Source: Lunularia cruciata | Lineage: Eukaryota; Streptophyta; Marchantiopsida; Lunulariales; Lunulariaceae | Direction of reading: 5' to 3' | Assembly (NCBI GenBank): GCA_948567375.1 | Contig: OX419759.1 | Location: 43,738,593 to 43,802,592 of the forward strand | DNA: 64,000 nt | Part shown: in pieces, positions 2,049-60,700 of the stretch | How the letters are laid out: each line of letters opens with the position of its first letter | Numbering within the stretch: the first letter of the stretch is position 1 | Program-made: the position numbers and the translations under genes | The notes under the pieces: model-generated | Database searches by the model: none | Told to the model about the DNA's origin: nothing | The model's input: the letters and a program-made list of their open reading frames with translations, nothing else

Positions 2049-2951
2049 TTCAGAACTTCCTCAAAGTCTCAATCTTATAGTATTTTTCTGCATGGTCATT
2101 CTTCAGTTGATCTTCAATGGACACTCAAAAATTCTGAGTGTTTGTTCTCTATCACTCTATGACAACCCGGCAAATATCACTTTTGTGGTAATTGGGTAAG
2201 TAAAGTTTGTTCTCACAAAGATATGAGTCAAAAATGTCCAAATACAAAGTCAAAGTAACAATTTCATTTCTTCTTGGTTGCATCTTTAATCTCTCAGGTA
2301 GAAACCACACCCAGAAGAGAGTAACAAGCACTAACTTGCAGTCTTGTCACAAATTAACACTCCATAATCACAACTCCATCAAATATTTCCAAACAATCTT
2401 GATTGTGATGATTCAGGCTGTCCTGAAAATGGCACTTCACTGCAAAACTACTTCACCTCAGAATTGTGTTCCACTCCTCCACTGAAGGCACAACTTCCTC
2501 GATCAAAATTGCTTCCCGTCAACTTTGCACTACACTCACAAATGCAAAATACCACCAACACTACAATTTCTCTCAGATTTGTCAAGGCATTGCTTTGATT
2601 GCACTTCACTCAGGATCAAACACACAGAATGAAGATCAAGGATGCGGAATCCAACATCCAACAAGCACTCTGACTTGCACTTCAAATTTCTCCAAACACT
2701 CACAAACACAAACGCAAAGTTGATGCTCAAAATCAAGCTCGAGCAACAAGCACTGCTTCACAGCACTTTGCTTTATCTATTCTCAGAAATTATGAGCACT
2801 GAACAACATTTCTCTATGAATGCCACTCTGAAGTAGTGAAGCAACCAATAGTTCTAACAACTATACCGTTCTACAACAACTTTTCTTACCTACAGATCCA
2901 AAATGACAATGCACCTCTTCATATCTGCCTCTTCAAATCTCAAAATTGTTA

Positions 2952-5507
2952 CTAATCCGATCCAATGTCTACTTTGTCATCAGCTTTAAAACTTGAACCC
3001 GAAGTAATCTTACTTCTTACTACTCTGTCTTTGGGTTTCATATCTTCTACTTCTTCTACCAGATCCAGCAATTCTCTTTCTTGATCTGAAATTCCACTAG
3101 TGGGTAATCTATCTAATTCTTCATCTCTCAACCCACTCTTCTCTAATGTCTCCACTGGTAACTCTGAAGACATCTTCACTCCTATGTTATCTACTTTGGG
3201 TTTGGCTCTTACATCTTTCTAAAGTTTTTCTATCTTTATTTTCACTAAGTCTAATCTAATCGCAATATTGTCTTCTACTTCTAAGATCTTCATGTCTACA
3301 CAAGTTCTTAAACTAATCAACAAGGCATTCAAATCTATGTCTTTTGCCTGTCTTTGCCTTGTCTCTTGCACCAACAACTTCAACTCGTGCAGCCTCGTCT
3401 CTTCAATTTGAACATTGGTCTCTGTACTCAACATCGCATTCATCCTGAGGACTATCTCCTTCAATGGCTCCAATCTCATCTTCTTGTCTCACTCTTGATC
3501 TGCAAGCCAGCCCTCCCTATACATTGCCAATTCCGCTTTGAACTCGGCTTTCACAGTCTCCTTCTCCATCTGTACTACCTTCTCCTCCTGATTACAAAGT
3601 AACTCTCGTAATCTCTCTTCTTCCCTATACCGTGTTGCCAACTCTCTTTGCCAGAGTTGCTTCTTCTCCTCAACACTCTCCATCACCCTATCGAGCTCTT
3701 GATCCTTCACTGCTACTCTTGCCATAGCATGGATAACTTCTACTCTTGAATCAGCAAACTACTGCTTCAAGATCTTGTTTTCAGCTACTTGTCTTTCCCT
3801 TGCTATGTCACTCTTCTTAACAAGATCTTCTCAATATCTCACTTCTCTCTTCAGGTCTTCAATTACCTGAGTCCTCACTATTGCCTCCGCTGGCAGTACT
3901 TCCCTTTCCTCCTCACCTTGGGTTATACTCTTCTTCAACTCCGAGTTTTCTTCTTCTAATCTTGCCAACACCTGCAAGACAGTCTTTACCTCTGGACAAG
4001 TTGACTGCATCTCCTTCCTCTTGCACTCTTACTTCACCAGCAGAGGACACACCACCTCTTGCAGGTACTCAACTCCATCGCTCGGGGTTACTTCTTCTTG
4101 CATAGCCACTTCTCTTTGTACTTCTTGTTCATCCGATACTTGCCTCCTTCTCTGTAGTCTTCATATCGGAACGGACGCCTTGCTTCCCGAGCTTGCATTT
4201 GATTCTTCTTGCACATTACTGGGACCTGCATCGTACTTTGCCTTACGTCTTGAGCAGACTCCCCTCTGATCTTTTGCCTTGGGTACTTCATCTTCCAACT
4301 TTGTGTTGTCCTTGGCCTCGATCTCTGCCTGAACTTCTTCTTCTTCTTCTATAGTAGTTGGTGCTGATGTCATTCCTCCACCCTCATTGCTGTTGCTACT
4401 TGTATCTCCACTCTGTAGCGTTAGCTTGGGCTCCTCCTCGTGTTCCGAGTCTTTGGTCTTGCGCTTGGTGTCACCTTCCAAGTCTTCATCTTCCGACTCA
4501 ATCACCACCATGCCTCGCCTCGGGTTTCCTCTCCAGGTCTTCCGAGGTTTCATTGTGTCTTTAGCTTTGCCCTACCAACTTCTCTTCTTTGAGTTTGGAG
4601 TACTCACTTCGATCTCCACATTCTTCCCTGTCTTCTTGTAGTACTCATTGGTGCTTCTGATTTGCAAGATGTACTGCTGCTCCTCTACATCGACCTCCTT
4701 TCTCAAATCGGGATGGAAATGCGACACCATCCAAATTTGCTCCGCCAAGTTCAGCAAATTCAACCCGAGGTAGAAATGAGCTGCAAACGGCACGATGTAG
4801 TGTGGAGGCGATTTATCCCGCAGATTAAACACCATTTGTCACGTTCTACCATGGAAACACCTTGCCCAATTTATCAGTTCTCCTACAAACAACTTGTGAA
4901 AGAACACCGCTTGGAATTTCATCACATAGGTTGCTCTCTCTAGCTTCATGATTGCCATCAGAGCACTCACAATTCCTCTCTTGACAAGGTCTTTGTAACT
5001 CTCCACTTTGTACCCATTCTTCGTCCGCTTTGACGAGAATGCATCTCTCACCTCTAGGGTTTCTTGGGCTATCTCTCCCTTCTCCATGAACGTGGCCCCC
5101 AGCTCTGAGCCTGCTTCCTTCCCGAGTACTAGTCTCCAATCCGACTCTATCCAGCGAGCCGGATTTCCTCTCTTCCCTTCTTCCTTGGGTCCATCGAGAC
5201 ACTTGCTCTTGATAATCTCTGTCATGAAACCTGGAAAACTCACGTTCCAGTTCCATGCAAAGAAGGTGATCCAAAGTCGGCTCAAGACTTTGATCCTAGC
5301 AATCACATCTAACCTCTGAATTGCATGATTTCTCACTGCAAATTTAGAGTTCTTTTTTCCTCCTCCTATCTCTCCTGCTTTCTTACTATCTCTTGATTTC
5401 ACTCTTGCAACTTCTCCCTTACACACTAACGCGTTTCCAACTCTATTTCCCTTCCCACCATCACCTACAGGACAACGTCTCAACGGCAAAGGAAAATTAC
5501 TCGACAT
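2952..5507 (-). pseudogene. AWN-1L protein: ~850-codon frame broken by stops
   Basis: The likely start is the ATG at 5507 (M-S-S-N-F), just downstream of a TATAAAAATAG box. One minus-strand frame then runs without frameshift to about 2952, with only in-frame stops. Order of parts: core domain (residues ~50-320) with A-W-N-W-N-V-S-F-P-G-F, E-S-D-W-R-L-V-L and P-P-H-Y-I-V-P-F-A-A-H-F-Y-L; an acidic Glu/Asp-rich linker (4553-4161); a heptad-rich coiled coil (4000-3220); and a C-terminal tail (3179-2952). One lesion is CGA to TGA near 4841. The protein has no RT, integrase or transposase motif. The function is unknown. A nucleic-acid-binding or capsid-like structural role is only a guess from the globular-plus-coil layout. 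Confidence 0.75.
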
Positions 5508-5523
5508 TTTGTCATTGCGAGTT

Positions 5524-5534
5524 CTATTTTTATA
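5524..5534 (-). promoter_or_regulatory. TATA box upstream of the AWN-1L reading frame
   Basis: The element strand reads CTATAAAAATAG, 17 bp before the first conserved ATG (5507). An equivalent A/T box precedes the reading frame in copies 1R, 2, 3 and 4, which supports function. The distance is so short that transcription would start near or just past this ATG, so a downstream Met may be the real start. Confidence 0.5.
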
Positions 5535-6245
5535 GAGTTGCACTTTCTTTGTCTTTCTTCACTTTGAGTTTCTATCGAGAAATCACACCTCCTGCATGCA
5601 CCTAGCACTGTCAATCAAACCTTGCGCATATGGGCCGCCGGTTTTTGAACGGTCCCTTCTTGAATTTCTCACCCTGACAAAAGGTTGTTAGACTGACTTT
5701 GCCTCGGGTTGAGCTCCCCCCGATACAAAGACTCCTTACTTTGGGCTGTGTGCTGACAAGGCATTTCCGAGTACTTCGCCTTATGACCCAAAGTCACTTT
5801 ACTTTGGGTTTCATCCCAAAGACTCTTTTCTTTGCCTTCTTTGGCCATACAGGCGCAATCTGACTTCTCTATACACTTCTTCTTTATTTTGAAGAAAACA
5901 AAAAAATGTGGGCACCACACACTCTCAATGTCACCTTGATTTCAAAGTAGCCATTTTCTCTACCCATGCTTTCTTGATTGGCTAGGCCCAAGGAAAATTT
6001 GTGATAGGTTCTATGGATTGGGTTTTGCATCTCGATGCAATGTAACCTTACTTTGGATCTATCCTTCTTTAAGTCCAACTTGAGTCCTTCTAACTCTAAC
6101 ATGAACTCAACTTCTTTGGGTCTATCCCAAATACACCATTTTCCTCTTTTATTCTTCATTAAGCTTAACAAAGCTTAAGCAACTTGGCTTTAACAATACA
6201 CTTCTTTTTAAAAATTTGTCAAAAATGAAAAATGTGGGTACCATA

Positions 6246-10423: not shown

Positions 10424-10844
10424 CTAGTACATCATAGTTAAGCTTAAAAAAATAATAGTAAAATACAACTTAAAATATAAAGAAAATCTTAGGATAGAAC
10501 TCAAGGAATTGGCTTGAGACCAATATTCACTCTTCAGATTACAGATGACTTCTTAATAATACAAACTAACTTTAGGCTAACTGTAATGCCTTTGCCCAAT
10601 GTGCACTTAAGATTCTATTCAAAACATTAATTTTTGGATGTCTACTTCAATTTGAAGTTTTAGAAGTCCACTCCAATCCCATAAGACTATTGATTTTCAC
10701 TTACTTAAGAATCTAACCAAAACCCTAATTTTTGGGGATCCACTTGATTTTGAGTATTTGGGGAATCAATTCAATCCAATAATACTTTATTCGGGTCCAT
10801 TCTTCATTTTTCCTACACGGTGTCGTCTGGAAAAAGCCAGATGA
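10424..10844. other. A/T-rich non-coding stretch of repeat B
   Basis: No reading frame or RNA gene is recognised. The partner in B' is at about 36807-37169 plus 36112-36140. The TTTTTCCTACACGGTGTCGTC block near 10810-10832 is the edge between this stretch and the tandem array, and it is where the partner's 665-bp insertion begins. Confidence 0.6.
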
Positions 10845-11868
10845 GCTTGGTAAGGAGAGGGGTCAGGATTTTGAGAAGAGGAGGGCTGGACAATAGAGGG
10901 TTTTTTTTTCAGTGAAAGTCTTGCGTGAGTGCACCTGCAGACACGGTATGAAAATTTGGGACAGATGAGGACTGGACAGCAGAGAGCTTTCGGGAAAATG
11001 TGAGATGAGCTTGTAAGGAGTGGTTGTAGGATTTTGAGAAGAGGAGGGCTCGACAGTAGAGGGTTTTTTTTTCAGTGAAAGTCTTGCGGGAGTGCACCTG
11101 CAGACACGGTATGAAAATTTGGGACAGATGAGGACTGGACAGCAGAGAGCTTTCGGGAAAATGTGAGATGAGCTTGTAAGGAGTGGTTGTAGGATTTTGA
11201 GAAGAGGAGGGCTCGACAGTAGAGGGTTTTTTTTTCAGTGAAAGTCTTGCGGGAGGGCACATGCTGACAGGGTTCGAAAATTCAGGACAGATGAGGACTA
11301 GACAACAGAGAGCTTTCGTGAAAATGTTAGATGAGCTTGGTAAGGAGTGGTTGCAGGATTTCGAGAAGAGGAGGGCTGGACAGTAGAGTGTTTTTTTTTC
11401 AGTGAAAGTCTTGTGGGAGTGCACATGCTGACAAGGTATGAAAATTTGGGACAGATGAGGACTGGACTAAAGAGAGCTTTTGGGAAAATGTGAGATGAGC
11501 TTGGTAAGGAGTGGTTGCAGGATTTTGAGAAGAGGAGGGCTGGACAGTAACGGTTTTTTTTTCAGTGAAAGTCTTGGGGGAGGGCACATGCTGACAAGGT
11601 ATGAAAATTTGGGACAGATGAGGACTGGACTAAAGAGAGCTTTTGGGAAAATGTCAGATGAGCTTGGTAAGGAGTGGTTGCAGGATTTGGAGAAGAGGAG
11701 GGCTGGACAGTAGAGGGTTTTTTTTCAGTGAAAGTCTTGGGGGAGGGCACATGCTGACAAGGTATGAAAATTTGGGACAGATGAGGACTAGACTAAAGAG
11801 AGCTTTCTGGAAAATGTCAGATGAGCTTGGTAAGGAGTGGTTGCAAGATTTTGAGAAGAGGTTTTGAG
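10845..11868. repeat. 163-164 bp tandem array, about 6.3 copies
   Basis: The landmark CAGTGAAAGTC recurs at 10910, 11073, 11236, 11400, 11563 and 11726, giving a period of 163-164 bp. Each unit contains a T8-T9 run, a GATGAGCTTG block and GGACAGATGAGGACT. Units differ by point changes and 1-base indels. Long minus-strand open stretches across the array are not genes: the period is not a multiple of three and the frames cycle. The related array in B' is at 35255-36112, inverted and with about five copies. Such arrays are known in untranslated regions of plant Tat/Ogre-type retrotransposons. Confidence 0.95.
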
Positions 11869-13482: not shown

Positions 13483-14295
13483 CATTAAAAGGCAATAAAA
13501 AAGTGAATTCCATATGATTTTTGCAATTGGGTGATTCAAATGTATGGCAATGTTGGAGTTAGTGGAATTTTTTCCATGAGCAGTACTCCTTGTTCCTCAT
13601 TGCACTATGGTCTCATTTAATGGGGAAGATAGTAATCTTTCCCCTTATCAACTAGCTATTGGAGAATGAGTGAGACATTACAAAGGGTCAAAGGGTTCAA
13701 GAGGGTGATAGACCCTTGAACCATCTCCAAAGTAAGTGTCTATGGAAATTTCTTGTTCTCCAATGGGAAAACACTTGACTATGGGAGTCCAGACTACTAC
13801 GCCGCTCCAATCCAAATCATAGGCTGGCCAAAAATGGGTCTATGTAAGTCACCTCCCTTATGTTCCATAGTCAATTGTTAATTGTGAGTGTTGCCCAAGC
13901 AACATTTCTGGTGCTCACTAATGATGATCTTGTATGTCCTCTCCACTCTACTCTACAACATGTTTTGGCCATGTGTACTCCTTGCCATCCCATGAGAGCA
14001 CAAAAGTTCTTCATATAGGGGAATTACTGCCTCCCATACCTACAACCAACTATCCAAGCTAAGAAGAAGCATCACCACATATGCTTATAAGTTCATTGGC
14101 TTTCATATCAATGGAAGCTATACCTCTTGTTGTGGCCAATATTGTTGCTATGACCCAAGTTCAAACAACATTTCCATTGAGGGAAAAGACTTTTGCCTAA
14201 GGAAATCTTCCTACTTCAAACTTGCATCCCATAGTGGTGCACATTTATTTTACAGTACCAGTTACAACTTTGCAACTCCTATATCCCATGCTACC
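13483..14295 (+). other. Leader of the gag element in arm A', no gene seen
   Basis: Inverted partner of 6761-7569. It begins with a block (CATTAAAAGGCAATAAAAAA) shared with arm A, directly after the 516-bp LTR. I see no convincing gene. Weak similarity in layout to the region before the gag at 24186 suggests untranslated leader sequence. Confidence 0.4.
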
Positions 14296-14806
14296 ATGAC
14301 TTTGGGAGGAGGGAATGATTGCATACCTTTAGGAATGGTATGCAATGTTCAAGAAAACTTCAAGTCATTGCTATGCATGTTTGAGAATGTTTGTATAGCC
14401 CAAAATAATGTAGATGATGCCCCCATGGCATCGCAAATAGGCCAATGTTTTATTGATGTTGTCCAATATTGATATAATGGTCTAACCGCAGCCACAAAAA
14501 CAAGCTTTGCAATGATACAAGTTGAAGGGTGAAAAGAGCACATCTCTCCAAGACAACAAGAACCACTTGAAGACAAAATAAAGTGGTTCCACAAATTACA
14601 CAACAAAACCATACATGCACTTATCCAATGATTCCAATAGATATTGTCAATGATCAACCAACACTAGACCATACTGTGGATCTCAATTGGTTTAAGGATG
14701 TCCTACCAAAGGACATTCAAAAAGTTTTAATCTACAACAAGGCAACAACTCTAGCACAATCATTTGAAGAAGCATGCTGTTGGGCCCAAGCTAATGATTG
14801 GGATAT
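14296..14806 (+). pseudogene. gag: Retrotransposon gag (capsid) relic, arm A'
   Basis: Same gag segment as 6246-6760 on the opposite strand: L-L-C-M-F-E-N-V-C-I-A-Q-N, S-Q-I-G-Q-C-F, G-L-T-A-A-T-K-T-S-F-A, and then in another frame D-L-N-W-F-K-D-V-L-P-K-D-I-Q up to A-N-D-W. Stops at about 14470 and 14530 and a frameshift near 14640 inactivate it. It is cut at 14806/14807, where AWN-6R begins, and the reading frame continues spuriously into the element's T-rich start. Confidence 0.7.
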
Positions 14807-15508
14807 TATGGTACCCACATTTTTCATTTTTGACAAATTTTTAAAAAGAAGTGTATTGTTAAAGCCAAGTTGCTTAAGCTTTGTTAAGCTTAATGAAGAA
14901 TAAAAGAGGAAAATTGTGTATTTAGGATAGACCCAAAGAAGTTGAGTTCATGTTAGAGTTAGAAGGACTCAAGTTGGACTTACAGAAGGATAGATCCAAA
15001 GTAAGGTTACCTTGCATCGAGATGCAAAACCCAATCCATAGAACCTATCACAAATTTTCCTCGGGCCTAGCCAATCAAGAAAGCATGGGTAAAGAAAACG
15101 GCTACTTTGAAATCAAGGTGACATTGAGAGTGTGTGGTGCCCACATTTTTTTGTTTTTTTTCAAAATAAAGAAGAAGTGTGTAGAGAAGTCGGATTGCGC
15201 CTGTATGGCCAAGAAAAGAGTCTTTGGGATGAAACCCGAAGTAAAGTGACTTCGGGTCATAAGGCAAAGTACTTGGAAATGCCATGTCAGCACACAACCC
15301 GAAGTAAGGAGTCTTTGTATTGGGGGGAGCTCAACCCGAGGCAAAGTCAGTTTAACAACCTTTTGTCGGGGTAAGAAATTCAAGAAGGGACCGTTCGAGA
15401 ACCGGCAGCCCATATGCGCAAGGTTTGATTGACAATGATAGGTGCATTCAGGAGGTGTGATTTCTTGGTAGAAACTCAAAGTGAAGAAAGACAAAGAAAG
15501 CACAACTC

Positions 15509-15519
15509 TATAAAAATAG
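15509..15519 (+). promoter_or_regulatory. TATA box upstream of the AWN-1R reading frame
   Basis: TATAAAAATAG starts 27 bp before the ATG at 15536. The position is conserved in copies 1L (5524-5534), 2 (a CACTATAAGAATT block near 45165), 3 (51533-51543, minus) and 4 (63674-63680, minus), although their flanking leaders have diverged. Confidence 0.5.
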
Positions 15520-15535
15520 AAATTGCAATGACAAA

Positions 15536-18280
15536 ATGTCGAGTAATTTTCCTTTGCCGTTGAGACGTTGTCCTGTAGGTGATGGTGGGAAGGGAAATAG
15601 AGTTGGAAACACGTTAGTGTGTAAGGGAGAAGTCACAAGAGTGAAATCAAGAGAAAGTGAGAAAGCAGGAGAGATAGGAGGAGGAAAGAAGAACTCTGAA
15701 TTTGCAATGAGAAATCATGCAATTTGGAGGTTAGATTTGATCGCTAGGATCAAAGTCTTGAGCCCACTTTGGATCACCTTCTTTGCGTGGAACTAGAATG
15801 TGAGTTTTCCAAGTTTCATGACAGAGATCATCAAGAGCAAGTGTCTCGATGGACCCGAGGAAGAAGGGAAGAGAGGAAATCCGGCTCGCTGGACAGAGTC
15901 GGATTGGAGACTAATAGTCGGGAAGGAAGCGGGCTCGGAGCTGGGGGCCACGTTCTTGGAGAAGGGAGAGATAGCCCAAGAAACCCAAGAGGTGAGAGAT
16001 GCATTCTCGTCAAAGCGGACGAAGAATGGGTACAAAGTGGAGAGTTACAAAGACCCTGTCAAGAGAGGAATTGTTAGTGCTCTGATGGCAATCCTAAAGC
16101 TGGAGAGAACAACCTATGTGATGAAATACCAAGTGGTGTTCTTTCACAAGTTGTTTGCAGGAGAACCGATAAATTGGGCAAGGTGTTTCCATGGTAGAAC
16201 ACGACAAATGGTGTTTAATTTGCGGGATAAATCGCCTCCACACTACATCGTGCCATTTGCAGCTCATTTCTACCTCGGGTTGAATTTGCTGAACTCGGCG
16301 GAGAAAATTTGGATGGTGTTGCATTTCCATCCCAATTTGAGAAAGGAGGTCGATGTAGAGGAGCAGTAGTACATCTTGCAAATCAGAAGCACCAATGAGT
16401 ACTACAAGAAGACAAGGAAGAATGTGGAGATCAAAGTGAGTACTCCAAACTCAAAGAAGAGAAGTCGACAAGGCAAAGCTAAAGACATGATGAAACCTTG
16501 GAAGACCAGGAGAGGAAACCCAAGGCGAGGCATGGTGGTGATCGAGTCGGAAGATGAAGACTCGGAAGGTGATGCCAAGCGCAAGACCAAAGACTCAGAA
16601 CATGAGGAGGAGCCCGAGCTAACGCTGCAGAGTGGAGATACGAGTAGCGACAGCATTGAGGGTGGAGGAATGACATTGGCACCAACTGCTGTAGAAGGAG
16701 AAGAAGAAGAAGTTCAGGCAGAGATTGAGGCCGAGGACAACACAAAGTTGGAAGATGAAGTACCCAAGGCAAAAGAGAAGATTGCAGTTCAGAGGGGAGT
16801 CTGCTCAAGACATAAGGCAAAGTACGATGCATGTCCGAGTAATGTGCAAGAAGGAGCAAATGCAAGCTCGGGAAGCAAGGCGTCCGTTCCGATATGAAGA
16901 CTGCAGAGAAGAAGGCAAGTATTGGATGAACATGAAGGACAAAGAGAAGTGGCTACGCAAGAAGAAGTAACCCCGAGCGATGGAGTTGAGTACTTGCGGG
17001 AGGTGATGTGTCCTTTGCTGGTGAAGTTAGAGTACAAGAGGAAGGAGATGCAGTCAACTTGTCCAGAGGTAAAGACTATCTTGCACGTGTTGGCAAGATT
17101 AGAAGAAGAGAACTTGGAGTTGAAGAAGAGTATAACCCAAGGTGAGGAGGAAAGGGAAGTACTGCGAGCGGAGGTAGTAGTGAGGACTCAAGTAATTGAA
17201 GACCTGAAGAGAGAAGTGAGATATCAAGAAGATCTTGTTAAGAAGAGTGACATAGCAAGGGAAAGACAAGTACCTGAATACAAGATCTTGAAGCAGCAGT
17301 TTGCTGATTCAAGAGTAGAAGTTATCCATGCTATGGCAAGAGTTGCAGTGAAGGATCAAGAGCTTGATAGGGTGATGGAGAGTGTCGAGGAGAAGAAGCA
17401 ACTCTGGCAAAGAGAGTTGGCAACACGGTATAGGGAAGAAGAGAGATTACGAGAGTTACTTCGTAATCAGGAGGAGATGGTAGTACAAAAGGAGAAGGAG
17501 ATTGTGAAAGCCGAGTTCAAAACGGAATTGGCAATGTACAAGGAGGACTGGCTTGCAGATCAAGAGCAAGACGAGAAGATGAGATTGGAGCCGTTGAAGG
17601 AGATAGTTCTCAGGATGAACACGATGTTGAGTACAAATGCCAACATTCAAATTGAAGAGACGAGGCTGCACGAGTTGAAGTTGTTGGTGCAGGAGACGAG
17701 GCGAAGATAGGCAAAAGACACTGATTTGAATGCCTTGTTGATTAGTTTAAGAACTTGTGTAGACAGGAAGATCTTAGAAGTAGAAAACAATATTGCGATT
17801 AGATTAGACTTAGTGAAAATAGAGATAGAAAAACTTTATAAAGATGTTAGAGCCAAACCCGAAGTAGATAACATAGGAGTGCAGATGTCTTTGGAGTTAC
17901 TAGTGGAGACATTAGAGAAGAGTGGGTTGAGAGATGAAGAGTTAGATAGATTACCTACTAGTGGAATTTCAGATCAGGAAAGAGAATTGATGGATCTGGT
18001 AGAAGAAGTAGAAGATATGAAACCCAAAGACATAGTAGTAGGAAGTAAGATTACTTTGGGTACAAGTTTGAAAGTTGATGACAAAGTAGACATCCGATTG
18101 TGGAATTAGAGTTAGATAGATTACCCACTAGTGGAATTTCAGATCAGGAAAGAGAATTGATGGATCTGGTAGAAGAAGTAGAAGATATGAAACCCAAAGA
18201 CACAGTAGTAGGATGTAAGATTACTTCGGGTACAAGTTTGAAAGTTGATGACGAAGTAGACATCCGATTGGATAAGTAAC
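15536..18280 (+). pseudogene. AWN-1R protein: ~860-codon frame with four stops
   Basis: A single plus-strand frame runs from the ATG at 15536 to 18109 without frameshift. It is interrupted by TAG at 15797 (Trp elsewhere), TAG at 16367 (Gln), TGA at 16895 (a position that is Lys/Arg-like in relatives; the same stop is in copy 1L) and TAG at 17708 (Gln). Parts: core domain (15670-16370), acidic linker (16480-16890), coiled coil (16950-17710) and C-terminal tail (17726-18109, then a duplicated tail to 18280). All four stops are C-to-T or G-to-A changes. I recognise no catalytic motif. The family has several copies here, so it is or was an active element product, not a host gene. Confidence 0.8.
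17939..18280 (+). repeat. 170-bp tandem duplication in the AWN-1R C-terminus
   Basis: GAGTTAGATAGATTACC begins at 17939 and again at 18109. The following ~165 bases match closely, including S-G-I-S-D-Q-E-R-E-L-M-D-L in both. Copy 1L has this block once, so the duplication arose after the inverted duplication, or was lost on the left. It puts a stop at the end of the first unit. Confidence 0.9.
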
Positions 18281-19179
18281 AGTTTTGAGATTTGAAGAGG
18301 CAGATATGAAGAGGTGCATTGTCATTTTGGATTTGGACGTTAGAAAAGTTGTTGTAGAACGGTATAGTTGTTAGAACTATTGGTTGCTTCACTACTTAAG
18401 AGTGGCATTCGTAGAGAAATATTGTTCAGTGCTCATTATTTCTGAGAATAGATAAAGCGAAGTGCTGTGAAGCAGTGCTTGTTGCTTGAGCTTGATTTTG
18501 AGTATCAACTTTGCATTTGTGTTTGTGAGTGTTTGAAGAAATTTGAAGTGCAAGTCAGAGTGCTTGTTGGATGTTGGATTCCGCATCTTTGATCTTCATT
18601 CTGTGTGTTTGATCCTGAGTGAAGTGCAATCAAAGCAATGCCTTGACAGATCTGAGAGGAATTGTAGTGTTGGTAGTATTTTGCATTCGTGAGTGTAGTG
18701 CAAAGTTGATGGGAAACAATTTCAATTGAGGAAGTTGTGCCTTCAGTGGAAGAGTGGAACACAATTCTGAGGTAAAGTAGTTTTGCAGTGAACTACCGTT
18801 TTTGAGAGAGCCTGAATCATCACAATCAAGATTGTTTGGAAATATTTGATGGAGTTGTGATTATGGAGTGTTAATTTGTGACAAGACTGCAAGTCAGTGC
18901 TTGTTACTCTCTTTTGGGTGTGGTTTCTACTTGAGAGATTAAAGATGCAACCAAGAAGAACTGGAATTGTTACTTTGACTTTGTATTTGGACATTTTTGA
19001 CTCATATCTTTGTGGGAACAAACTTTACTTACCCAATTACCGCAAAAGTGATATTTGCCGGGTTGTCACAGACTGATAGAAAACAAACACTCAGAATTTG
19101 TGAGTGTCCATTGAAGATCAACTTAAGAATGACCATGCAGCAAAATACTATAAGATTGAGACTTTGAGGAAGTTCTGAA

Positions 19180-20591
19180 ATGTCACAAAAATACCCTATG
19201 CCTCTTAATAGTTGTCTAGAAGGAGTTAGAATCTCAAGCTTTGGTGAGGGTTTGATCTTTCAGAGATCACGAGTTAGAAACCCCACAATGTCACCAAAGA
19301 GTAGCAAGGAGAGTTTGGTGATGAGTCTTACAATTTGGAGATTAGATGTAGTGGCAAGGATTGAAGTCTTGAACAGACTTTGTATCACCTTTTTGGCATG
19401 GAATTGGAACTTAAGGTTTCCAGGTTTTAAGGGTAGAAATCACTGCCAGTAATTGCAAAGATGGTCCTAAGATAGAAGGGAAGACAAGAAACTGGGCTTG
19501 ATGGACTAAGTTGGATTGAAGATTGGTCTTGGGGAGAGAAGCCAAAGAAGTGGAGGAGTCACCTTCTACTGGAAATATGAAGCCCTTTTGAAGGCGCACA
19601 CCAGTAACTTCTCTCTGAGCTCCTTAAGCCCTTTATCCCACCTATTCAAAAGCTCCAGTGCCCAAGTTTCTTTGGAAGAAACTACAGGGGCGAGGAATTC
19701 TTTTAGTGCTCTTTGCACTAAGGATGGGTACAAGGTGGATAGGTTTAAAGCCCTGATATAAAAGGGTAAAGTCGGCGCTTTGATGGCAATGTTTAAGCTA
19801 GAGCAAACCACCTATGTTATGAAGCAGCAAGTTGTGTTCTTTCACCAAATGTTTGTAGTGGAAGTGGCGAATGGGGCAAAGTGCTTTCACCAAAAAGTAG
19901 GTCAAAAGATTAATAATTGGAGAATGGACCAACTACCCCATTACTTCATACCCTTTGCAGCCCATTTCTACTTAGAACTGAACCTACTTAGCTAAGAGGA
20001 GAAAGGGAAGATGGTGTCACACTTTCACTGTGATCTATGTTGAGTTGCAGATGTGGATGAACAATATTACATAAGGCAAGTAGTGAAGGTGATGAACACT
20101 TCATCATAAAAATGGAAGGAGAAGATGGTGTTGGTGGATATCCTAAGACCAAGGAAGCATGGTGAAAGATAGTAGTGGTGAACCTCTCATCAAGTGAAGA
20201 ATCAGAAGGAGAAGCCAAGTCGAAGTGTGAAGATTCAGGAGAAGAAGAAGAGGTCACCTTGCAAAGTAAAGAGTCTAGTAGTGGGAGTAATGGAGAGCCT
20301 GAAGTCTAGCAATTGGTGGAAGAAGTGGCTTTAGAAGATGATCAGGAATTCCATGTGCAAATTGCATGCATGGAAGGAGGAGACAACTATTTTGTGGAGT
20401 TGGCCAAGGTATATATTCATGAGGAAAGAGAAGATGAGTCAGTCTTGGTGTTTTCAAGAGGAGCAAGATCAAAGAGAAGTTTGCAGGTTGCAGTTGTAGA
20501 ACCAAGTAAAGTAGAAAAAGAAGAAGAAGGAGAAGAAGAATGCTCAGAAGAGATGACTTTGAAGGTAAGAAGATTGAGACTTTGGGGTTAG
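19180..20591 (+). pseudogene. AWN-6R protein relic: core domain and acidic region
   Basis: Plus-strand twin of 640-2048. 19180-19452 reads an N-terminus, then W-R-L-D-V-V-A-R-I-E-V-L and F-L-A-W-N-W-N. 19780-19995 reads the F-F-H-Q-M-F and H-Y-F-I-P-F-A-A-H-F-Y-L part. 20313-20591 reads an acidic region ending in V-R-R-L-R-L-W-G. This last motif is the junction motif between linker and coil in other subfamily-II copies. Frameshifts separate the three pieces. The coil is missing because AWN-7R begins at 20774. Confidence 0.65.
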
Positions 20592-20773
20592 GCACCAATT
20601 GAAGAAGCACCAACCAAGGTTGAAGAGAGAAAAGAAGATGCATAAGAGTTCAATGGAGTAGCATATATGTCAAAGATTGTTTGTCCCTTGTTATTGGGAT
20701 TTTTGTGAAAGGAAGAGGGAGATTTTGAAGAGAGATCATCCAAAAGTGAAGTTAGCTAGAAGTATTGATGTAC

Positions 20774-22790
20774 ACTGATACCCACATATTTTATTTCATT
20801 TGTTTTAAGGAATAAGTGCATTAGTAATGCCAAATTAAGGCTAAACGTGGAAGAAACACAAAGAATCATGTGTTTTGGTGTAAACCCAAAGTCAACCTTG
20901 TGTCAAAGTTAGAAGGACTTGGGTCAAACAAATGGAAGTGTGAAGCTGAAGACAAAGGACTTTGCATTGGGATGCACAATTCAATCCAAAGGACCAATAA
21001 CAACTTCTTTGTTGGTTGTGCCAATCAAGAAAGTAAGTGGGAAGAAAGTGACTACCTTGGGACCAAGATGATCTTGAAAGTGATAGGAAGCCAACATGTA
21101 GAATTGGTGGGTAAACAAAGAAACAACTGAAGAATGATTGATCCGCTAAGGACTATGAATTGAGATTTTGTGAAAGAAGTTCTGCAATGTCTAGAAGGTA
21201 TCTTGTGCCAATCACATTAGACCTTGAGTAATGCAAACTTTGAATATGCAAGAAGAGTGGGTTAGAGTCTTGAGTTTGATCTTTGATAACTAGAGAGTGA
21301 GGAAGCACAAGATGGCCCCAAAGGGAACTAAGCAGAGTTTGGTGAGGGGTGTTGCAATCCACCAATTAGAGGTAAGAGCACAGATTGAAGTCTTGTCCAG
21401 ACTTCATATCACATTTTTGGCCTGGAACTGGAATTTGAGTCTTCCAGGGTTCATGGTAGAGATCACTGCAAAAAATTGTAAGGATGGGCCCAAGCACAAG
21501 GTAAAGAGAGGAAATCCAGCTCGATGGATTGATTCTGATTGGAGATTAGTTTTGGGAAGAGAAGTAGGAGAGGTAGATGGTATCACCTCTATTGGAAGTG
21601 TGATGCTACGGAAGAAATTGCTAAGGTTAGGAACTCTTTTAGTCGACCTTGCACCAAGGAGGTCTACAATAACAGGTACAAGGTGGATTGTTACAAGGAT
21701 CCAATGTAAAGAGGGATTGTGAAGCATGACGATGGCTATGTTCAGGCTAGAGCAAACCACCTATGCAACAATCCAACAAGCAGTGTTCTTCCAACAGATG
21801 TTTGCATGAGAAGAGGTGGACTGGCCAAAGTGTTTGCACCAACAAGCGAGGCAAATGATCACCGGTTGGATGATGGATACACCATCCCACTACTTTGTAC
21901 CCTTTGCAGCCCACTTCTATTTTGGGCTGAACCTGTTGAGCTCCGAGGAGACAGGATGAATGGTATCATATTTTCACCCCAATTTGCAAAGAGATGCAGA
22001 TGCGAATGAATGAGATTACATCAAGCAGATTCTTGAAGGTGATGACTACTACCTAGAGAGTGGGAACAAGAAGACAGTGGCAATGGACATCCCCAAGCCA
22101 AGGAAGAGAAGTATTTGATTTCTATATTCTGAGTGATTTGACTAGTTAGCGTGGACATTCAAAGAGCTTAGTGTTTATTATGAGCAAAAGGTGAATAAAG
22201 TGAAGTGTTATTACAGTACTCATCACTTTCTGAATTTTGAATGTCAAGTGAATGTCTTTGTCTATGAATGTTTGGGAATTTTTAATGCAAGTGGAGGTGT
22301 AGTCAGATGGTGGGTTTCTAAAACCTAAATTTTAGGATGTGTGTTTGATCCATAATGAAACACTTGCAAAGCAATGCCTTGACAGATCCTTTGGAACTGT
22401 AGTGTTGTCAATACTCAAACTTTGTAGATAGGAACCAGACATTGATGCAAAATTCACTTGGAACTTGTATCTTGTGGGAGAGTGGAATGCAATTTCAAGA
22501 AGAAGTTACTTTGTGACAAAGTAGGCATCTTTGCATCAACCTAATTGTCACAATTGACTCTAAGTGGAATATTGTTGAAGAGTTTTAAGTGACATTTCAT
22601 CTACAACAAAACATTTAGTTGGAGTTTGCTGTCCTCTTCTAGGGGTTTGTTTGAGCCTGAGAGGTTAAAGACATGATTAAATGAACTAATGTGTTTTTTT
22701 ACTTCATATTCAAACATTCTTGACACTTATCTTTGTGTGAACAAACAATTACTTACATATTATTGCAATTTGGTACTTTGTAAGTCTTAA
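20774..22790 (+). mobile_element. AWN element copy 7R, internally deleted
   Basis: The start block (ACTGATACCCACA) is at about 20774, followed by a T-rich tract and a leader like that of AWN-6. The core-domain frame is at 21297-22120. The tail (22130-22790) closely follows the AWN 3' end, including a GAGCCTGAGAGGTTAAAGA block and ACACTTATCTTTGTGTGAACAAAC. The acidic linker and coiled coil are absent, so the copy is only about 2.0 kb. The 3' end near 22780-22790 (CTTAACA) is degraded, and no target duplication could be recognised. Confidence 0.65.
21297..22120 (+). pseudogene. AWN-7R protein relic: core domain only
   Basis: 21297-21722 reads openly through the core: A-I-H-Q-L-E-V-R-A-Q-I-E-V-L, F-L-A-W-N-W-N-L-S-L-P-G-F, and A-R-W-I-D-S-D-W-R-L-V-L. 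Further frames continue to the F-F-Q-Q-M-F and H-Y-F-V-P-F-A-A-H-F-Y-F-G-L-N-L-L part near 21790-21950, and to a K-K-T-V-A-M basic end near 22070. Frameshifts near 21640 and 21720 break it. No coiled coil follows. It shows that the core domain is the most conserved module of the family. Confidence 0.7.
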
Positions 22791-28931: not shown

Positions 28932-29046
28932 TGTACAGATATTTAACTGCGGGTGCCTTTTGCTGTTTTGCCGTATCGATTGTATGGAGGGATCCCCAAC
29001 CCTGCACAAGGTATCTCGACCAGCGCCAATGGTCGAATCCACCTTC

Positions 29047-30952: not shown

Positions 30953-32030
30953 TGTGACAACCCAGCAAATATCACTTTTGCAATAATCAGCAAGTAACAG
31001 TTTGTTCCCACAGAGATACAAGTTAAAAATGGTCAAATACAAAGTAGAACATCAAAAATCAATTCTTCTTGATTGCATCTTTAGTCTCTTGAGTATAAAC
31101 CACACTTAGAAGCGAGTAACAGGCATTGAATCACAATGTCATCACAAAAAAATCACACACATAATCACAATTTTCAAATCTGTCCAAACAATCTTGATTG
31201 TGATGATTCAGTTCTTCCAAAGAAGGCTACTTCCCCATGAAATGACTTTGCCTTGGAATTTTTTTCCACCCCTCCATTGGAGACACAACTTCCTCAATCA
31301 AAAATGCTTTGCATCAATCTAGTATTGCACTCACAATTGCACAACATTACCAACACTATGATTTCTCATAGATTCATCATGGCATTGCATTGATTGCTAT
31401 CCACTCAAGATGAAACATACAAAATGAAATTAGAGTTGTAGGATCCAACATCTATCACTCAGACTTGCACTTTGAACTTGTCCAAACACTTACAAACACA
31501 CACATAATATTGATACTTGGAATTAAGCTGAAATTGTGAGCACTAAGTTATAGCAATCCACATTACTCAACTTCAGAATAACATTACTGAATCCCAACTC
31601 ACTACAAATGACTCCTTTAAATAGGCAGAGCACTTAGACAGTTATGTAACTAAGTACGGTTTTAACAACTTTACCAACCTGCGGATCCAAAATGACAATC
31701 CACCTCTTCAGATCTCAAAACTATTGCTTAATTTATCCAATGTCTACATTGACATTGGCTTCTACACCCAAATTACGTTCAACAACTTCCCCTACATCGA
31801 GTTCAACTATAACTTCTTCTATTTCTATCTTGTCTTTTGATTGAATTGAAACTCAGTACTGAGTAGTGCCTTCAACTCACAACAACATTTCCTAACAGCT
31901 CCAATGTTTTCTTAGGAACTACCTTCTCCCTATTCCTCTTTGCTTCCAACTCATTCAAGTAGATGTTCAATTCATCTTCAAATTCAGCTTTCAATGCTTA
32001 TTTTTCTTCCATGTACTGAACCCATTGAGC
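30953..32030 (-). mobile_element. AWN element copy 8, 3' part only
   Basis: The minus-strand end GGGTTGTCACA is at 30953, preceded (upstream, higher coordinates) by the standard AWN tail. A TATTTAAA box at 31616-31623 lies about 665 bp before the end, the clearest version of the second TATA-like site. Fragments of the C-terminal tail and coil coding region lie at 31750-32030. Homology stops at about 32030, so the 5' three quarters are missing. Heavily mutated; no usable frame. Confidence 0.7.
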
Positions 32031-36112: not shown

Positions 36113-36140
36113 ACGACACCGCGTAGGAAAAATGAAGGAT

Positions 36141-44490: not shown

Positions 44491-44529
44491 AGAGGAGGCA
44501 AACCAACCAATAAGTCTAACAGAGGAACA

Positions 44530-44774: not shown

Positions 44775-44779
44775 TATGA

Positions 44780-47700
44780 TGTGGTCCCCACATTTTTGTT
44801 TTTTCTTATTTTTAAAGAAGAAGTGTACAAAAGAAGTTGTATTGCGCCTATATGACATCAAAAGGCAAAGAATGGTGTCTTTAGGTTGTAACCCAAGGTA
44901 AAGTGACTTTGTGTCAGAAGACAAAGTACTCGGATTGGCCTTGTCAGCATTCAACCCAAAGTAAGGAGACTTTGGCTCGGGGGTGCTCAACCCAAGGCAA
45001 GGACAGTATAACAACTTTCTTTTGGGGTTGGACATTCAAGAAGGTACCACACACAAAAACGGCTAGCCTATGAGCGGGGAAAAATCAACAATGACAAGAG
45101 CATGCAAGAGGTGTGATTTCTTGGTAGAATTTTGAAGTGAAGAAAGACGGAGGAAGCACGCCACTATAAGAATTGGGATAGAGACAAAGAGATGACAAGT
45201 AAAATTTCATTATCATTAAGGAGTCGTCTTGAGGAAGATTGTGGGAAAGGAAGTGTAGAAAGAGATCCGTTGGTATGTGGAGAGGAAGTCAGGAGACTTA
45301 GTTTGGGAATCAGTTGGAAGAGTAGCCACCAACCCCAAGTTGAAGAGAGTAAGATTGGAGGTGGGAAGAAGAAGAACTCGGAATTTGCAATGAGGAATCA
45401 TGCAATTTGGAAATTAGATGTCATCACAAGAATAGAAGTTTTGAGCAGGCTTTGGATCACATTCCTGGCATGGAATTGGAACCTTAGTTTTCCAAGTTTT
45501 GTGAGTGAGATCATTGAGAGTAATGTCTTGATGGAGAAGATAAGAGAGGAAATCCGGCTCCTTGGATAGAGTCAGATTGGAGGTTAGTACTCAAAAGAGA
45601 GGTGGGTGAAGAGCAAGGAGCCACATTCTTGGGGAAAGGAGAAGTAGCTGAAGAAGCCCAAGAGGTGAGAAATGCCTTTTCTTCAAAGCACACAAAGAAT
45701 GGCTACAAAGGTGAGAGCTACAAGGACCCTATGAGGAGAGGCATCATAGGAGCAATGATGGCTATCTTGAAGTCGGAGCAAACTATTTATGTGATGAAAC
45801 ATCAAGCGGTGTTCTTCCATAAGATGTTTGCAAGGGAGCCAATCAATTGGGCGCAGTGCTTTCATCAACGTACAAGACAAATGGTATGGAATTTGTAGGA
45901 TAAGTCTCCTCCACATTACATTGTGTTGTTTGCATCCCACTTTAATTTGTGATTGAATTTGTTGAATGTGGCGGAGAGACACAAGATGGTGTCATACTTT
46001 CATCCCTATTTGAGAAGAGATGTTGATGCGGAGGAGCAGCAATACATTATACAGACTAGAAGCAGTGAAAATTATTGTGCATAGACGGGGCAGAGCATGC
46101 AATTGAAGGTGAATACTCCAAAGTTGAAGAAGAGGAGTCGACTAGGAGAAGAAGAAGAAGTAGCAGCAATGAGACCTTGGAAGACTAGGAAGATGAACCC
46201 GAGGAAGGACTTGGTGGTAATTGCATTGTAAGGTGAAGAATCAGAAGGCAAAGTAGAGTACAAGTCAGAAGACTTGGAGAAGGAGGAAGAACCGGAATTC
46301 ACGTTGTAGAGTGGTGAAGCAAGCAGCAAGAGTGAAGATGGTGTGGAGACAAAGCTGGTACCAGAGGAAGAAGAAGAAAAGATGGAGATAGCAAAAGAAT
46401 GTAACCCAAAACAAGAAGATGAAGTACCAAAGAAGGTGGAGAAGAGGGTGATCATTCAGCAAGGTGTTTGCTCCAAAAGAAAAGCAATGTATGAGGCAGG
46501 ACCGAGTAGAAGAAGAGAAGTGGAGAGTGGAAGTTTAGGGAGTGAAGAATCTATTCCAATATGGTGATTGCGGCTGAGAAGAAGGGTATAAAGCAAAGAA
46601 GAAACAAAGAAGGAGAAAAGCTTGCAAGTCAAGGTAAAACATAGTGAAGGAGTAGAGTATTTGCGAGAGGTTGTGTGCCCATTGTTAGGGAAGTTAGAGG
46701 AGAAGAAAAAGAGATGTAGTGAAAGTGTCCAAAGGTGAAGATAGTGTTGTTAGTGAGATTAGAGAAAGATAACTTGGAGTTGACGGAGAGTATAATCCGA
46801 GGTGAGGAGGAGAGGGAAGTACTACAAGTAGATGCAACAGTACATAACTAAGTGATTGGAAACTTAAAGAAGGAAGTGGGGAATAGAGAGAGAGCAATAG
46901 AGCAAAATGTCATAGAGAGGGAAAGACAAATAGCGGAGGATGAAATCTTGATATAACAATTTGCTATTTCATGATTAGAAATCATCCATGCTATGGCACG
47001 AGTAGCAAAGAAGGAGCAAGAGCTTGATAGAGTGATGGAGAATGTAGAAGAGAAGAAGTAGCTCTGGCAAAGAGAGTTGACAATGAGATATAGAGAAGAA
47101 GAATGATTAAGGGAGTTACTTTGTAATCTGGAAGAGAAGATTGTGCAGAGGGAGAAGGAGACAATGAAAGCTGAATTTGAGGTAGAACTGGCAATGTATA
47201 GAGAAGATTGACTGGCAGATCAAGAATGTGAGAGAAGGATGAGACTCGAGCCATTGAAGGAGATTGTCATGAAGATGAATGTGATGCTGAGTACAAAAGC
47301 TAGTGTGATAATTGAAGAAACGTGATTGTACGAGTTGAAGTTGTTGGTGCAGGAGACAAGGAGGAGAAATGCAAAGGATAAAGACTTGAACGCCTTGCTG
47401 ATTAGTCTCAAATTTTGTGTAGATAGGAAGATATTGGAAGTGGAAGACAATATCACAATCAGATTAGATATTACAAAGTTGGAGATAGATAAACTTTGGA
47501 AGGATGTAAGAGCAAAGCCCAAAGTAGATGAGATAGAAGTACAAATATCTTTGGAGTTATCATTGGAGATATTAGAGAAGAGTGGGTCGAGAGATAAAGA
47601 GTTAGATAGATTACCTACTAGTGTAATTGCAAATCTGAGTAAAGAAGTAGTAGAAATAGTGAAAGATTTAAAAGTTGTGAAACTCAAGGATAGAGTAGTA

Positions 47701-48389
47701 TGTGAGGTTACTTCTAGATTGGGTTTGGAAGCTGAGGAAGAGGAAGATATCAGATCGGAGAAGTAACAAACTGGAGATTTGAAGAGGCAGATATGAAGAG
47801 GTGTATTGTCATTTTGGATCTACAAGTAGGAAGAGTTGTTAGGAAACGGTATAATTGCTAGTAACTATCAAGTGCTCTACCTATTTAGAGGGAGCATTGC
47901 TTGAGCTTGATCTTCATTGTGTGTGTTTGATCTTGAGTGAAGTGCAATCAAAACAATGCCTTGACATATCTGAGAAGAATTGTAGTGTTGGTAGTGTTCA
48001 ACATTTGTGAGTGCAGTGTAGTGTTGATGTGAAGCAATTTTGATTGAGGAAGTTGTGCCTTTAGTGGAGGGGTGGAACACAATTTTGAGGCAAAGTTTTT
48101 CTGCAATGAAGTGCCATTTTCAAGAGAGACTAAATTATCACAATCAAGATTATTTGGAAGATTTGATGGAGTTGTGATTAAGTGTGACAAATGGTTGTGA
48201 CAAGATTGCAAGTCAGTGCTTGTTTCTCTCTTCTGGGTGTAGTTGCTACCTAAGAGATTAAAGAAAAAATCAAGAAGGACTACATTGTGACATTTGACTT
48301 AATATTTAGACGTTTTTGAATAGTATCTCTATGTGAACGAACTTTACTAACCTGATTACCGCAAAAGTGATATTTCCTGGGTTGTCACA
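44780..48389 (+). mobile_element. AWN element copy 2, complete, TSD TATGA
   Basis: 3610 bp. Starts TGTGGTCCCCACA and ends GGGTTGTCACA. Flanked by a perfect 5-bp duplication TATGA (44775-44779 and 48390-48394). The empty site is visible in gypsy-3, where the protease reads straight through at 58441-58460, so the ends are certain. Contents: leader 44780-45180, TATAAGAA box near 45167, coding region 45192-47766, TATTTA at 47882-47887 (about 505 bp from the end), and a non-coding tail. There is no LTR pair, primer-binding site or pol. Younger than gypsy-2. Confidence 0.95.
45192..47766 (+). pseudogene. AWN-2 protein relic: core, linker, coiled coil
   Basis: ATG at 45192. 45192-45569 reads I-G-G-G-K-K-K-N-S-E-F-A, W-K-L-D-V-I-T-R-I-E-V-L and F-L-A-W-N-W-N-L-S-F-P-S-F. 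After a frameshift, 45602-45898 covers the F-F-H-K-M-F and Q-C-F-H-Q-R-T-R-Q-M-V part. The acidic linker lies at 46200-46567. The coil, with many stops, is at 46620-47300. The C-terminal tail 47326-47766 is open and matches AWN-1 (L-L-I-S-L-K-F-C-V-D-R-K-I-L-E-V-E-D-N). Same architecture as AWN-1 at clearly lower identity, so it is an independent member. Confidence 0.78.
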
Positions 48390-57705: not shown

Positions 57706-60700
57706 GTGGCTCCTAATTCCAACAAAGGTAAGGGGATAGCATCCATAGATGTGGTTGAGAGCAAGTATGAGAAGGGAGAGTGCTCAAACTCCAAGGGTCT
57801 TAATTTGGAGCTTTTGGTACAAGAGAAGAAGAGAGCTCGTTTTGCAGAGGATGTTCACTCTTCTCAAGGATTCAATCCAAGAAAGGATACTCTTATGTCT
57901 ATTAGGAACACTCGCACCTCAACACCATCAACAACAAAGACTCCAAGGAAGAAGTTGGGGATGGAGGACTTATTGATCTCAAAGCAACAATGGAACTACA
58001 ACGTGTTGGAGGATGTTGGTAGTCACAAAGCTAACATCACAATGGGCCAATTAATTGCTTTGAACCCTACCTTGAGAAAGGAGCTTAGAGGTGGTTTGAG
58101 TTCTTCAAGGAGCAAGAGGAAGAAGAAGGCAAAATTTCCAATATCAATGGGGGTGGTGGATGCCAAGCCAGCACAATGGGAGGCTTGTGAATATGCTTCC
58201 AAGATTGATGTGAGAGTGAATGGTCACAACATCAAGGATGCATTGGTTGATGAAGGATCAGCAGTAAATGCCATGTCAGAAAGGTTGATGAAGAAGTTGG
58301 GTATGATACCCTCAAGACCTTCAACATTTGTGGTGAGCATGACAAACAAGCAACAAGTTCAACCCGTAGGGGTGAAGGATAACGTGGTAGTTTCAGTTAC
58401 AGGAGTTCAAAATCTCATGACTTTCCAAGTCTTGAAGGATTCAAGCTATGATTTACTTCTTGGGAGGACATGGTTGAGAGCAGCACGCACAATTGATCAA
58501 TGGCACAAAGGGTACTTGAGGATTGGGCCATCAAACCATAGAGTCATAGTTCTTGTGACTAACACCACCAACACTTCACATCCAAATACACCATCTTCTG
58601 ATAATTGGGAATCAGATTATGAAGAAGGAGCTTCAAGTGTGGACACAAGCATGGAAGAGGAGACTTCCACGGAGGAGGATGAATCTGAATCTGATTCAGA
58701 TGTGTATCCTTTGTGTGCTATGGATTTTGCACCTAAGCTAGAGGTTTTGAAGGACCCAGACAAATCACCATTGACACTTGAGGAGGTAGAGAGAAGGTTA
58801 TCTACCCTCAAGTATAGCCCAAATGTTACCAAGAAGGAAAAGGTGAGATTTGAGGAGATTTTTTGCAAGTTCATCCATGTGTTTGCTTTTAGTTACAAGG
58901 ATTTGAAGGAAGTCACCTTGGAGGAGCACAAGATAGAGGTGGAGTCACATGCAAGACCAATCCGCCAAAAACAACATCGCATTAGCCCAAAAATATCTTT
59001 GGTTGTGAAGGAGGAGATTGATAAGCTCAAGGAGGCTAGATTTATCTTTGAGGTAGAGAATTCAGAATGGGTGTCTCCAATTGTCATTGTGAAGAAAAAG
59101 AATGGTAAGCTTTGGGTATGTGTGGATTACAAGAAGCTCAATGTTGTTACCAAGAAGGACTACTACCCATTGCCATTCATTGATGAGATCTTGGAGGAGG
59201 TTGCAGGTCATGAGAGGTATAGTTTTGGATATGGTTAAAGTGGATATAACCAAATCAAGATTGCACCGGAGCATCAACAACTCACCACATTCACCACACC
59301 TTGGGGAACTTACGCTTTCAATGTCATGCCTTTTGGGCTTTGCAATGCTCCAGCCACATTCCAACGGTTCATGAACAAGGTATTTGAACCTTTCATTGGG
59401 AAATTCATGAGAGACTTCATTGATGACTTTTGTGTCTATGGAAGCAAGGAGGAGCACTTTGAGCACCTAATCAAAATCTTGCAATGTTTGGATGAGGCAA
59501 ATTCATCACTCAACCCAGAGAAGTGCTTTTTGGATGTGAAGAAGGTCTACTTTTGGGGCACATCATCTATAAGGATGGAAAAGCAATTGATCCTAAGAAG
59601 GTGAGGAAAATCTCAGACCTTCCATTCCCTTCAAGCTTGACAAAGTTACGTCAATTCTTGGGGATGGTTGGATACTATAGGAGGTTAATCTTTGCATTTT
59701 CCAACAAGGCTTATGCATTGACCATCTACATGAAGAAGGGTGTAGATTACATGGTGATTTTGGAGGACAAGGAGGTTCTCAAAGCTTTTGAGGAGCTCAA
59801 GCAATCCCTTGTTGTAGCTCCAATTCTTGCTAAACGTGATTGGAGTAAGCCTTTCATACTCTACACTGATGCTTCTAATGAAGCTATAGGATGCACTCTT
59901 AGTCAATTAGACCAAGATGGGCATGATCATCCAATAGCTTATGCTAGTAGGCAGATGGTTTCAGCAGAGAAGAACTACTCTATCATGGAGAGAGAAGGGT
60001 TGGTAGTGATCTTTGGTCTCAAGAAGTTTAGACACTACTTGATTGGAGGGAAAGCCACCATTGTCACGGATCACAAGGCTTTGAAGTACATCTTCAACAA
60101 ACCTAATGTTGAAGGGAGACTAGCAAGGTGGATAACAGTATTTTCTGAGTATGACTACACCATTGAGGATAGGCCAAGAAAGAAACATGCAAATGCTGAT
60201 TTGTTATCTAGAGCCTATGATCATGGTAGAGATGAGCCAGTGGATGATTCCTTCTCAGATGAGGAGCTCATGACAATCTCAATCACTCAAGAGGTTCCAA
60301 TGGAGTACAAGGAGATTGTGGATTTTGTGACAAGAGGTAACTATCTAGAAGGGATGCATGCTAGGGAGAGTAAGGCCCTTGCAGCAAGATCTAGACCTTA
60401 TACAATGGTGGAGGATATTCTTTTTCACCAAAGAGCAGATGGTCTACTTCGAAGAGCAGTGGGTAAGGAAGAGCCTATCTTACTCATAAAGGAGTTTTGT
60501 GAAGGTTTAGTATGTGGAGGACACTTTGCAGGAAAGGTGACTGCTTTCAAGATTCTAGATGCAGGTTACCATTGGAGAGGAATTTTCAAGGATTGTCTTG
60601 ATTATTGCAAAACTTGTCATGTTTGTCAACTTGTCATGTTTGTCAACTTGTCAAGTTTGTCAACTTGTCATGTTTAGGTCAATTCCATTGCTTGGATCTT

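Follow-up and report, generated by a model that had tools for sequence, protein, structure and literature searches.

A solo long terminal repeat and its copies in the window

The window analysed here is a stretch of 64,000 nucleotides from Lunularia cruciata (contig OX419759.1, positions 43,738,593 to 43,802,592, forward strand). At 15133–19070 it holds a unit bounded by TG...CA, the focal unit, which the original prediction had described as carrying the ends of a long terminal repeat (LTR) together with an open reading frame (ORF) of ~860 codons. The feature coordinates are collected in Table 1. The focal copy is a single unit with a target-site duplication (TSD) and no internal region.

Three complete copies with conserved ends, 5-bp TSDs and a fixed internal plan had been proposed. 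The ends were confirmed at all three, with TGTGGTNCCCACA at the 5′ end and GGGTTGTCACA at the 3′ end, copy 1L ending in CATA. The 5′ motif gave 15 matches (at most two mismatches) against 4.74 expected, and the 3′ motif four matches (at most one mismatch) against 1.15 expected, with at least four reached in 3 of 100 shuffles. The three copies represent only two independent insertions, however: copy 1L and the focal unit occupy opposite arms of an inverted duplication (3–7569 and 13483–21228; arms of ~7.6 kb, ~5.9 kb apart and ~95% identical) and are therefore descendants of one insertion. The TSDs are exact for copy 3 (TATGA/TATGA) and copy 1L (GAGTG/GAGTG), whereas the focal pair (GAGTG/GACTG) has one mismatch. 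For copy 3, the second copy of its host element retains the unoccupied target site. As for the internal plan, the non-coding start, the first TATA box, the long frame and the non-coding tail were all recovered, but not the second TATA-like box proposed near the 3′ end.

More diverged LTR pieces, which belong to the superfamily of the focal LTR and share its ORF domain, lie at 14807–15132 and 19076–22109, at 49813–51923 (minus strand) and at 62493–63905 (minus strand); the focal LTR is apparently inserted within one of them.

Table 1. Coordinates of the focal LTR, its parts and its relatives in the window
Feature	Position	Strand	Remarks
Focal solo LTR	15133..19070	+	3938 bp, TG...CA; ends located by motif
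Left target-site copy of focal LTR, GAGTG	15128..15132	.	pair perfect in copy 1L
Right target-site copy of focal LTR, GACTG	19071..19075	.	one mismatch
TATAAAAA box	15509..15516	+	27 bp upstream of the first ATG of the frame
LTR-encoded frame, from ATG	15536..18106	+	857 codons, four in-frame stops in the focal copy
N-terminal part of predicted protein	15718..16365	+	most widely conserved part; no Pfam match; shared by the long-LTR subfamilies seen
Coiled-coil-like part of predicted protein	16898..17707	+	45% E/K/R/Q, 3% Pro+Gly, heptad periodicity
Non-coding tail common to long and short LTR classes	18280..19070	+	end abuts the primer-binding site in full-length elements
Copy 1L, duplicate of the focal insertion	2158..5919	-	sits in inverted duplication
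Copy 3, independent solo LTR within a Ty3-type element	44780..48389	+	TSD TATGA
Empty site of copy 3, in second copy of host element	58447..58451	.	
3′ fragment of a related LTR, end GGGTTGTCACA	30953..31817	-	

Long LTR pairs enclose gag-pol

We scanned the genome (566 Mb, 74 contigs) for exact matches to a longer form of the 3′ end, GCCGGGTTGTCACA, and counted 3944 occurrences (1985 + 1959); read backwards, the sequence occurs 0 times. A sample was drawn from 100 of the 3944 places, comprising 10-kb stretches around the first 20 and the 60 bp downstream of 40 more; L-numbers denote LTR units sampled elsewhere in the genome. The right flanks of the sampled ends vary by locus, and the sole sequence they share is TGA-TTTTTGGCACCGCTGCCGGGGA, with close variants. 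This shared sequence is a primer-binding site (PBS), and the 9 of 60 sampled ends that it directly follows (3/20 and 6/40) are therefore 5′ LTRs. Classed by the 5′ end found, eight of the 20 loci carry long units (3.2–3.8 kb) and seven carry short ones (1.82–1.91 kb), the other five having no assigned class. With several candidate starts tried per locus, an exact 5-bp TSD surrounds a single unit at nine of the 20 loci, four of them with long units. At L026/L027, several LTR 3′ ends are packed within 5 kb, apparently nested or in tandem.

The check suggested with the original prediction was a search for direct copies flanking an interior with a PBS right after GGGTTGTCACA, and three long-LTR pairs have exactly this arrangement (L018/L020, L070/L069 and L075/L076). 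L070/L069 belongs to the focal subfamily, with LTRs of 3624 and 3782 bp (identity 96.6% over 2789 bp and 97.7% over 843 bp) around an interior of 5979 bp; the PBS TGATTTTTGGCGCCGCTGCCGGGGA follows the 5′ LTR, a polypurine tract (PPT)-like run GAGGGAGGGGGTA precedes the 3′ LTR, and GGGTT stands outside both LTRs. The LTRs of L018/L020 (3.7 kb, 90.5% identical) have GAGGC outside both and a further unit, L019, nested inside, and those of L075/L076 (94.5% identity over 3.7 kb) come with PBS, PPT and a TSD with one mismatch. A short-LTR pair, L071/L072, was also found (1.91 kb, 93.8% identical, ATTGG outside both). The 5′ LTR of a full-length element is 79% identical to the focal LTR across 2.8 kb and 91% identical across the last 0.84 kb.

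We read gag-pol in the interiors of two of the three long pairs, L018/L020 and L070/L069. The L070/L069 interior matched zf-CCHC, RVT_1, RT_RNaseH, Integrase_H2C2 and rve above the Pfam cut-off, with Retrotrans_gag and protease models below it; Retrotrans_gag scored above cut-off in L018. The coding order in L070/L069 is a zinc-knuckle gag, a protease-like frame, reverse transcriptase (RT), RNase H and integrase, and among solved structures the RT matches Ty3 Gag-Pol (7q5b, 3e-61). The element is thus Ty3/gypsy by its zinc-knuckle gag, its protease–RT–RNase H–integrase order and its Ty3-type RT, the protease scores being below cut-off. The integrase frame ends (WMGPY) ~0.18 kb before the 3′ LTR, which is short for a chromodomain, although no dedicated chromodomain search of this stretch was made. 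We take the PBS to match plant tRNA-Asp, and RT and PBS presumably resemble those of the Athila/Tat lineage.

Because long pairs with PBS, PPT and TSDs enclose gag-pol, the unit can be identified as an LTR. The copy at 15133–19070 stands alone and is accordingly a Ty3/gypsy solo LTR, which bears out the reading preferred in the original prediction, that of a giant-LTR retrotransposon. At the focal locus, recombination between two LTRs would have taken out gag-pol and left the solo unit. The alternative offered at the time was a non-autonomous coding element of a new class, whose ends resemble those of an LTR. In its favour, single units flanked by an exact TSD are common (9 of 20 sampled, four of them long). 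It is contradicted by the three long pairs, which have a PBS, a PPT and shared TSDs (with a mismatch in one pair) and two of which contain gag-pol, and we consider it scarcely tenable. A DNA transposon was ruled out by the PBS, the PPT and the pairs enclosing gag-pol.

A frame under purifying selection within the LTR

The coding claim of the original prediction was upheld in that the ~860-codon frame shows frame-specific purifying selection, but the focal frame itself is not open. Towards its end the focal frame also has a ~170-bp tandem duplication, which is absent from 1L. In estimates of the ratio of non-synonymous to synonymous substitution rates (dN/dS), comparison of the focal LTR with copy 3, L009, L010, L011 and L019 gave 0.15–0.20 in frame, against 0.69–1.25 in the other two frames. 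With the more distant L018 and L020 the values were 0.30 in frame and 0.64–1.04 off frame, and for the L070/L069 3′ LTR against eight other copies they were 0.16–0.38 and 0.63–1.23.

Two pairs served as controls. Focal LTR against its duplicate 1L gave 0.45 in frame and 0.46 and 0.83 off frame; the two LTRs of L070/L069 gave 0.70 in frame and 0.33 and 0.48 off frame. Neither shows a frame effect, and both behave as expected of decay after insertion. In the focal set, an excess of third-position differences in one fixed phase is weak from LTR offset 300 and clear from 600 to 2850, and past ~2850 the codon phase is unstable. Taken together, the comparisons among copies demonstrate a conserved, predicted protein gene within the LTR, and each copy looks like a once-constrained gene that has been decaying since insertion.

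Between L018 and L070/L069, dS is about 2 for the LTR ORF and about 0.6–0.9 for gag-pol, a pattern that reshuffling of LTRs relative to gag-pol would produce.

The predicted protein

The protein layout comprises a conserved N-terminal part, a basic stretch, an acidic stretch and a coiled-coil-like part. In two copies, the coiled-coil-like part is composed of 43–45% E/K/R/Q and 2–3% Pro+Gly, with a heptad signal reached by 9 and 29 of 500 shuffles, respectively; the N-terminal piece has no such periodicity, as 467 of 500 shuffles reached its observed value. Read by eye, the peptide start M-x-S-x-F-P is present in eight of nine focal-type rows and in two of five others.

Searches with this protein returned little. 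Ten LTR-ORF pieces gave no Pfam match above cut-off and one below it (PASTA, E 0.071), a 370-residue piece found only a chance match among PDB sequences (E 0.99), and the same piece showed no similarity to one gag piece of the same element. AlphaFold models of the N-terminal part, built from 9 and then 11 natural pieces, had mean predicted local distance difference test (pLDDT) scores of 38 and 37 and were unusable.

A short-LTR class with nearly the same gag-pol

The first ~0.8 kb of the short LTRs could not be aligned with the long LTRs tested, whereas the 3′ portion of the ORF region is retained along with the tail. The last ~1 kb is common to both classes and, beyond the end motif, nothing else was shared in our comparisons. 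Between one short-LTR element and L070/L069, the gag-to-RNase H regions are 90% identical. The last ~115 codons of the ORF are open in several short copies, and across five pairs dN/dS here was 0.51–0.77 in frame and 0.61–1.63 off frame, constraint that is weak at most; the short set has little codon periodicity (1.06–1.48). The short class probably derives from the long form through exchange of the 5′ part of the LTR.

Promoters and the placement of the frame

The first TATA box of the original prediction is real and conserved. TATAA[AG] occurs at LTR offset 362–392 in 13 of 14 long LTRs, a set with some dependence since it includes focal/1L and two LTR pairs, and in none of nine short LTRs at that place. 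The exception, L021, has short-type sequence in its 5′ part. The L075/L076 LTRs have the box at offsets 324 and 374. The second, TATA-like box could not be substantiated, with no TATA[AT]A, TATAT, ATAAAT or AATAAA in the last 950 bp of the focal LTR, 1L or copy 3.

We consider it highly likely that the focal unit is a solo LTR left by a Ty3/gypsy retrotransposon whose giant LTRs measure ~3.6–3.8 kb, and that the LTR, most likely its unique 3′ region (U3), encodes an accessory protein of ~860 residues in the gag-pol sense. Transcription of the LTR ORF would be driven by a TATA promoter of its own, with the box 27 bp upstream of the ATG, and the genomic RNA would begin in the conserved 3′ tail from a TATA-less promoter. 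As this pairing of a TATA promoter for the ORF with a TATA-less genomic-RNA promoter in the shared tail is the simplest reading, the ORF is likely to lie in U3 rather than in the repeat and unique 5′ regions (R/U5).

The converse placement would have the TATA box at offset ~385 drive the genomic RNA, leaving a U3 of only ~400 bp and making the ORF, within R/U5, the first before gag. This box is indeed the only one at a fixed place in the long LTRs, the last 950 bp having no conserved counterpart. On the other hand, such a placement requires R and U5 together to exceed 3 kb, puts the start site on the ORF's own ATG, and must accommodate short LTRs that have neither the TATA box nor most of the ORF and are yet paired with a 90% identical gag-to-RNase H region. 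That only the last ~1 kb was found common to short and long LTRs, apart from the end motif, also speaks against it, and we regard it as unlikely.

Several observations weigh against a U3-encoded accessory gene. No promoter motif turned up in the last 950 bp, and the TATA box stands so close to the ATG that transcription starting at the usual distance would begin on the ATG itself. Among the copies read, none has the full-length frame open, and open stretches reach 370 codons at most. With a dN/dS of 0.07–0.18 (five comparisons), gag-pol is under somewhat tighter constraint than the LTR gene. The periodicity weakens (1.03–1.88) and shifts phase when an L018-type LTR serves as reference for three partners. 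Several comparisons have dS near saturation, the several values above 1 being rough. Since short-LTR elements are mobile despite lacking most of the ORF, the protein is dispensable in cis. Finally, the case for an LTR gene is built from sequence comparison throughout.

Some of these points would suit a different origin, in which the ORF is a captured fragment of a host or foreign gene and a functionless passenger in the element: every copy read is broken, there is no Pfam match, and the short class lacks most of the ORF. The ORF is nevertheless clearly constrained between subfamilies, if less than gag-pol, and its conserved part is present in the long-LTR subfamilies seen, which makes a passenger improbable.

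The LTR might further be a self-contained cassette of its own promoter, ~860-codon gene and 3′ end, with dispersed solo LTRs forming a family regulator that acts in trans. We offer this as a tentative idea, more doubtful than probable. Four of the 20 sampled ends are long single units with exact TSDs, and the genome has 3944 ends in all. Were it true, solo-LTR formation, normally fatal to an element, would leave a working accessory gene, and hundreds of dispersed solo LTRs could serve full-length members, including the ORF-less short-LTR ones with nearly the same gag-pol.

Other features of the window

A second inverted pair (7756–10786 and 36809–39840; 3.0 kb, 97.5% identity) is adjoined by ~163-bp tandem repeats (10830–11861 and 35235–36113). 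A different Ty3-type element with gag-pol occupies 54483–62321, with a 0.69-kb LTR pair (54483–55174 and 61630–62321, 96%); a second copy of this 0.69-kb-LTR element, at 41438–49811, holds copy 3. A peroxidase gene is represented at 27197–29054 on the minus strand by remains or exons, with PF00141 matched in two frames.

Comparison with known systems

LTRs are normally treated as non-coding control sequence, and solo LTRs are usually regarded as dead. Accessory proteins encoded in U3, or running into it, in the gag-pol sense are known from mouse mammary tumour virus (sag) and lentiviruses (nef). These are vertebrate retroviruses with env, their proteins are unrelated, and their coding regions are much smaller than ~860 codons. 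A literature search for ORFs inside LTRs returned no plant case by title or abstract, which is not proof of absence.

Exchange of LTRs by recombination during transposition reportedly takes place between members of one LTR retrotransposon family. Here, ORF-bearing and ORF-less LTR types share a 90% identical gag-to-RNase H region, and we infer that exchange gave rise to the two types.

Among plant elements, the Retrosat2 family (RIRE3, RIRE8) has LTRs of about 3 kb or more and an extra ORF0, Retrosat2 itself exceeding 12 kb (PMC3485330). The element here likewise combines long LTRs with an extra ORF. In the account consulted, however, ORF0 is described upstream of the gag-pol ORF and is not placed in the LTR (PMC3485330).

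Another likeness lies with plant additional ORFs (aORFs), which, in the excerpts consulted, are env-like in Athila and Bagy2 and antisense in Grande, RIRE2, Retand and PvRetro13 (PMC7264820). These elements, like ours, carry a conserved extra protein gene of unclear function in a plant LTR element, and the coiled-coil-like part and basic stretch found here are comparable to the SMC domain of PvRetro13 ORF2 and the nuclear GENE23 protein of Grande (PMC7264820). Our best guess is that the LTR protein is a nuclear coiled-coil accessory factor aiding its own element, as some plant aORFs may do. The position differs: according to the same source (PMC7264820), plant aORFs are internal and mostly sit downstream of pol, ahead of the 3′ LTR, whereas the ORF here lies past the PPT and inside the LTR. 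The additional ORF of our element is not in the internal region, where the integrase frame is followed within ~0.2 kb by the PPT-like run and the 3′ LTR. Because the ORF lies within the LTR, a solo LTR keeps it. With a conserved protein gene in a plant LTR, solo LTRs can thus retain and spread a gene, the element family might go on supplying a trans-acting protein after the loss of gag-pol, and repeat annotation may miss or misname such LTR-borne genes.

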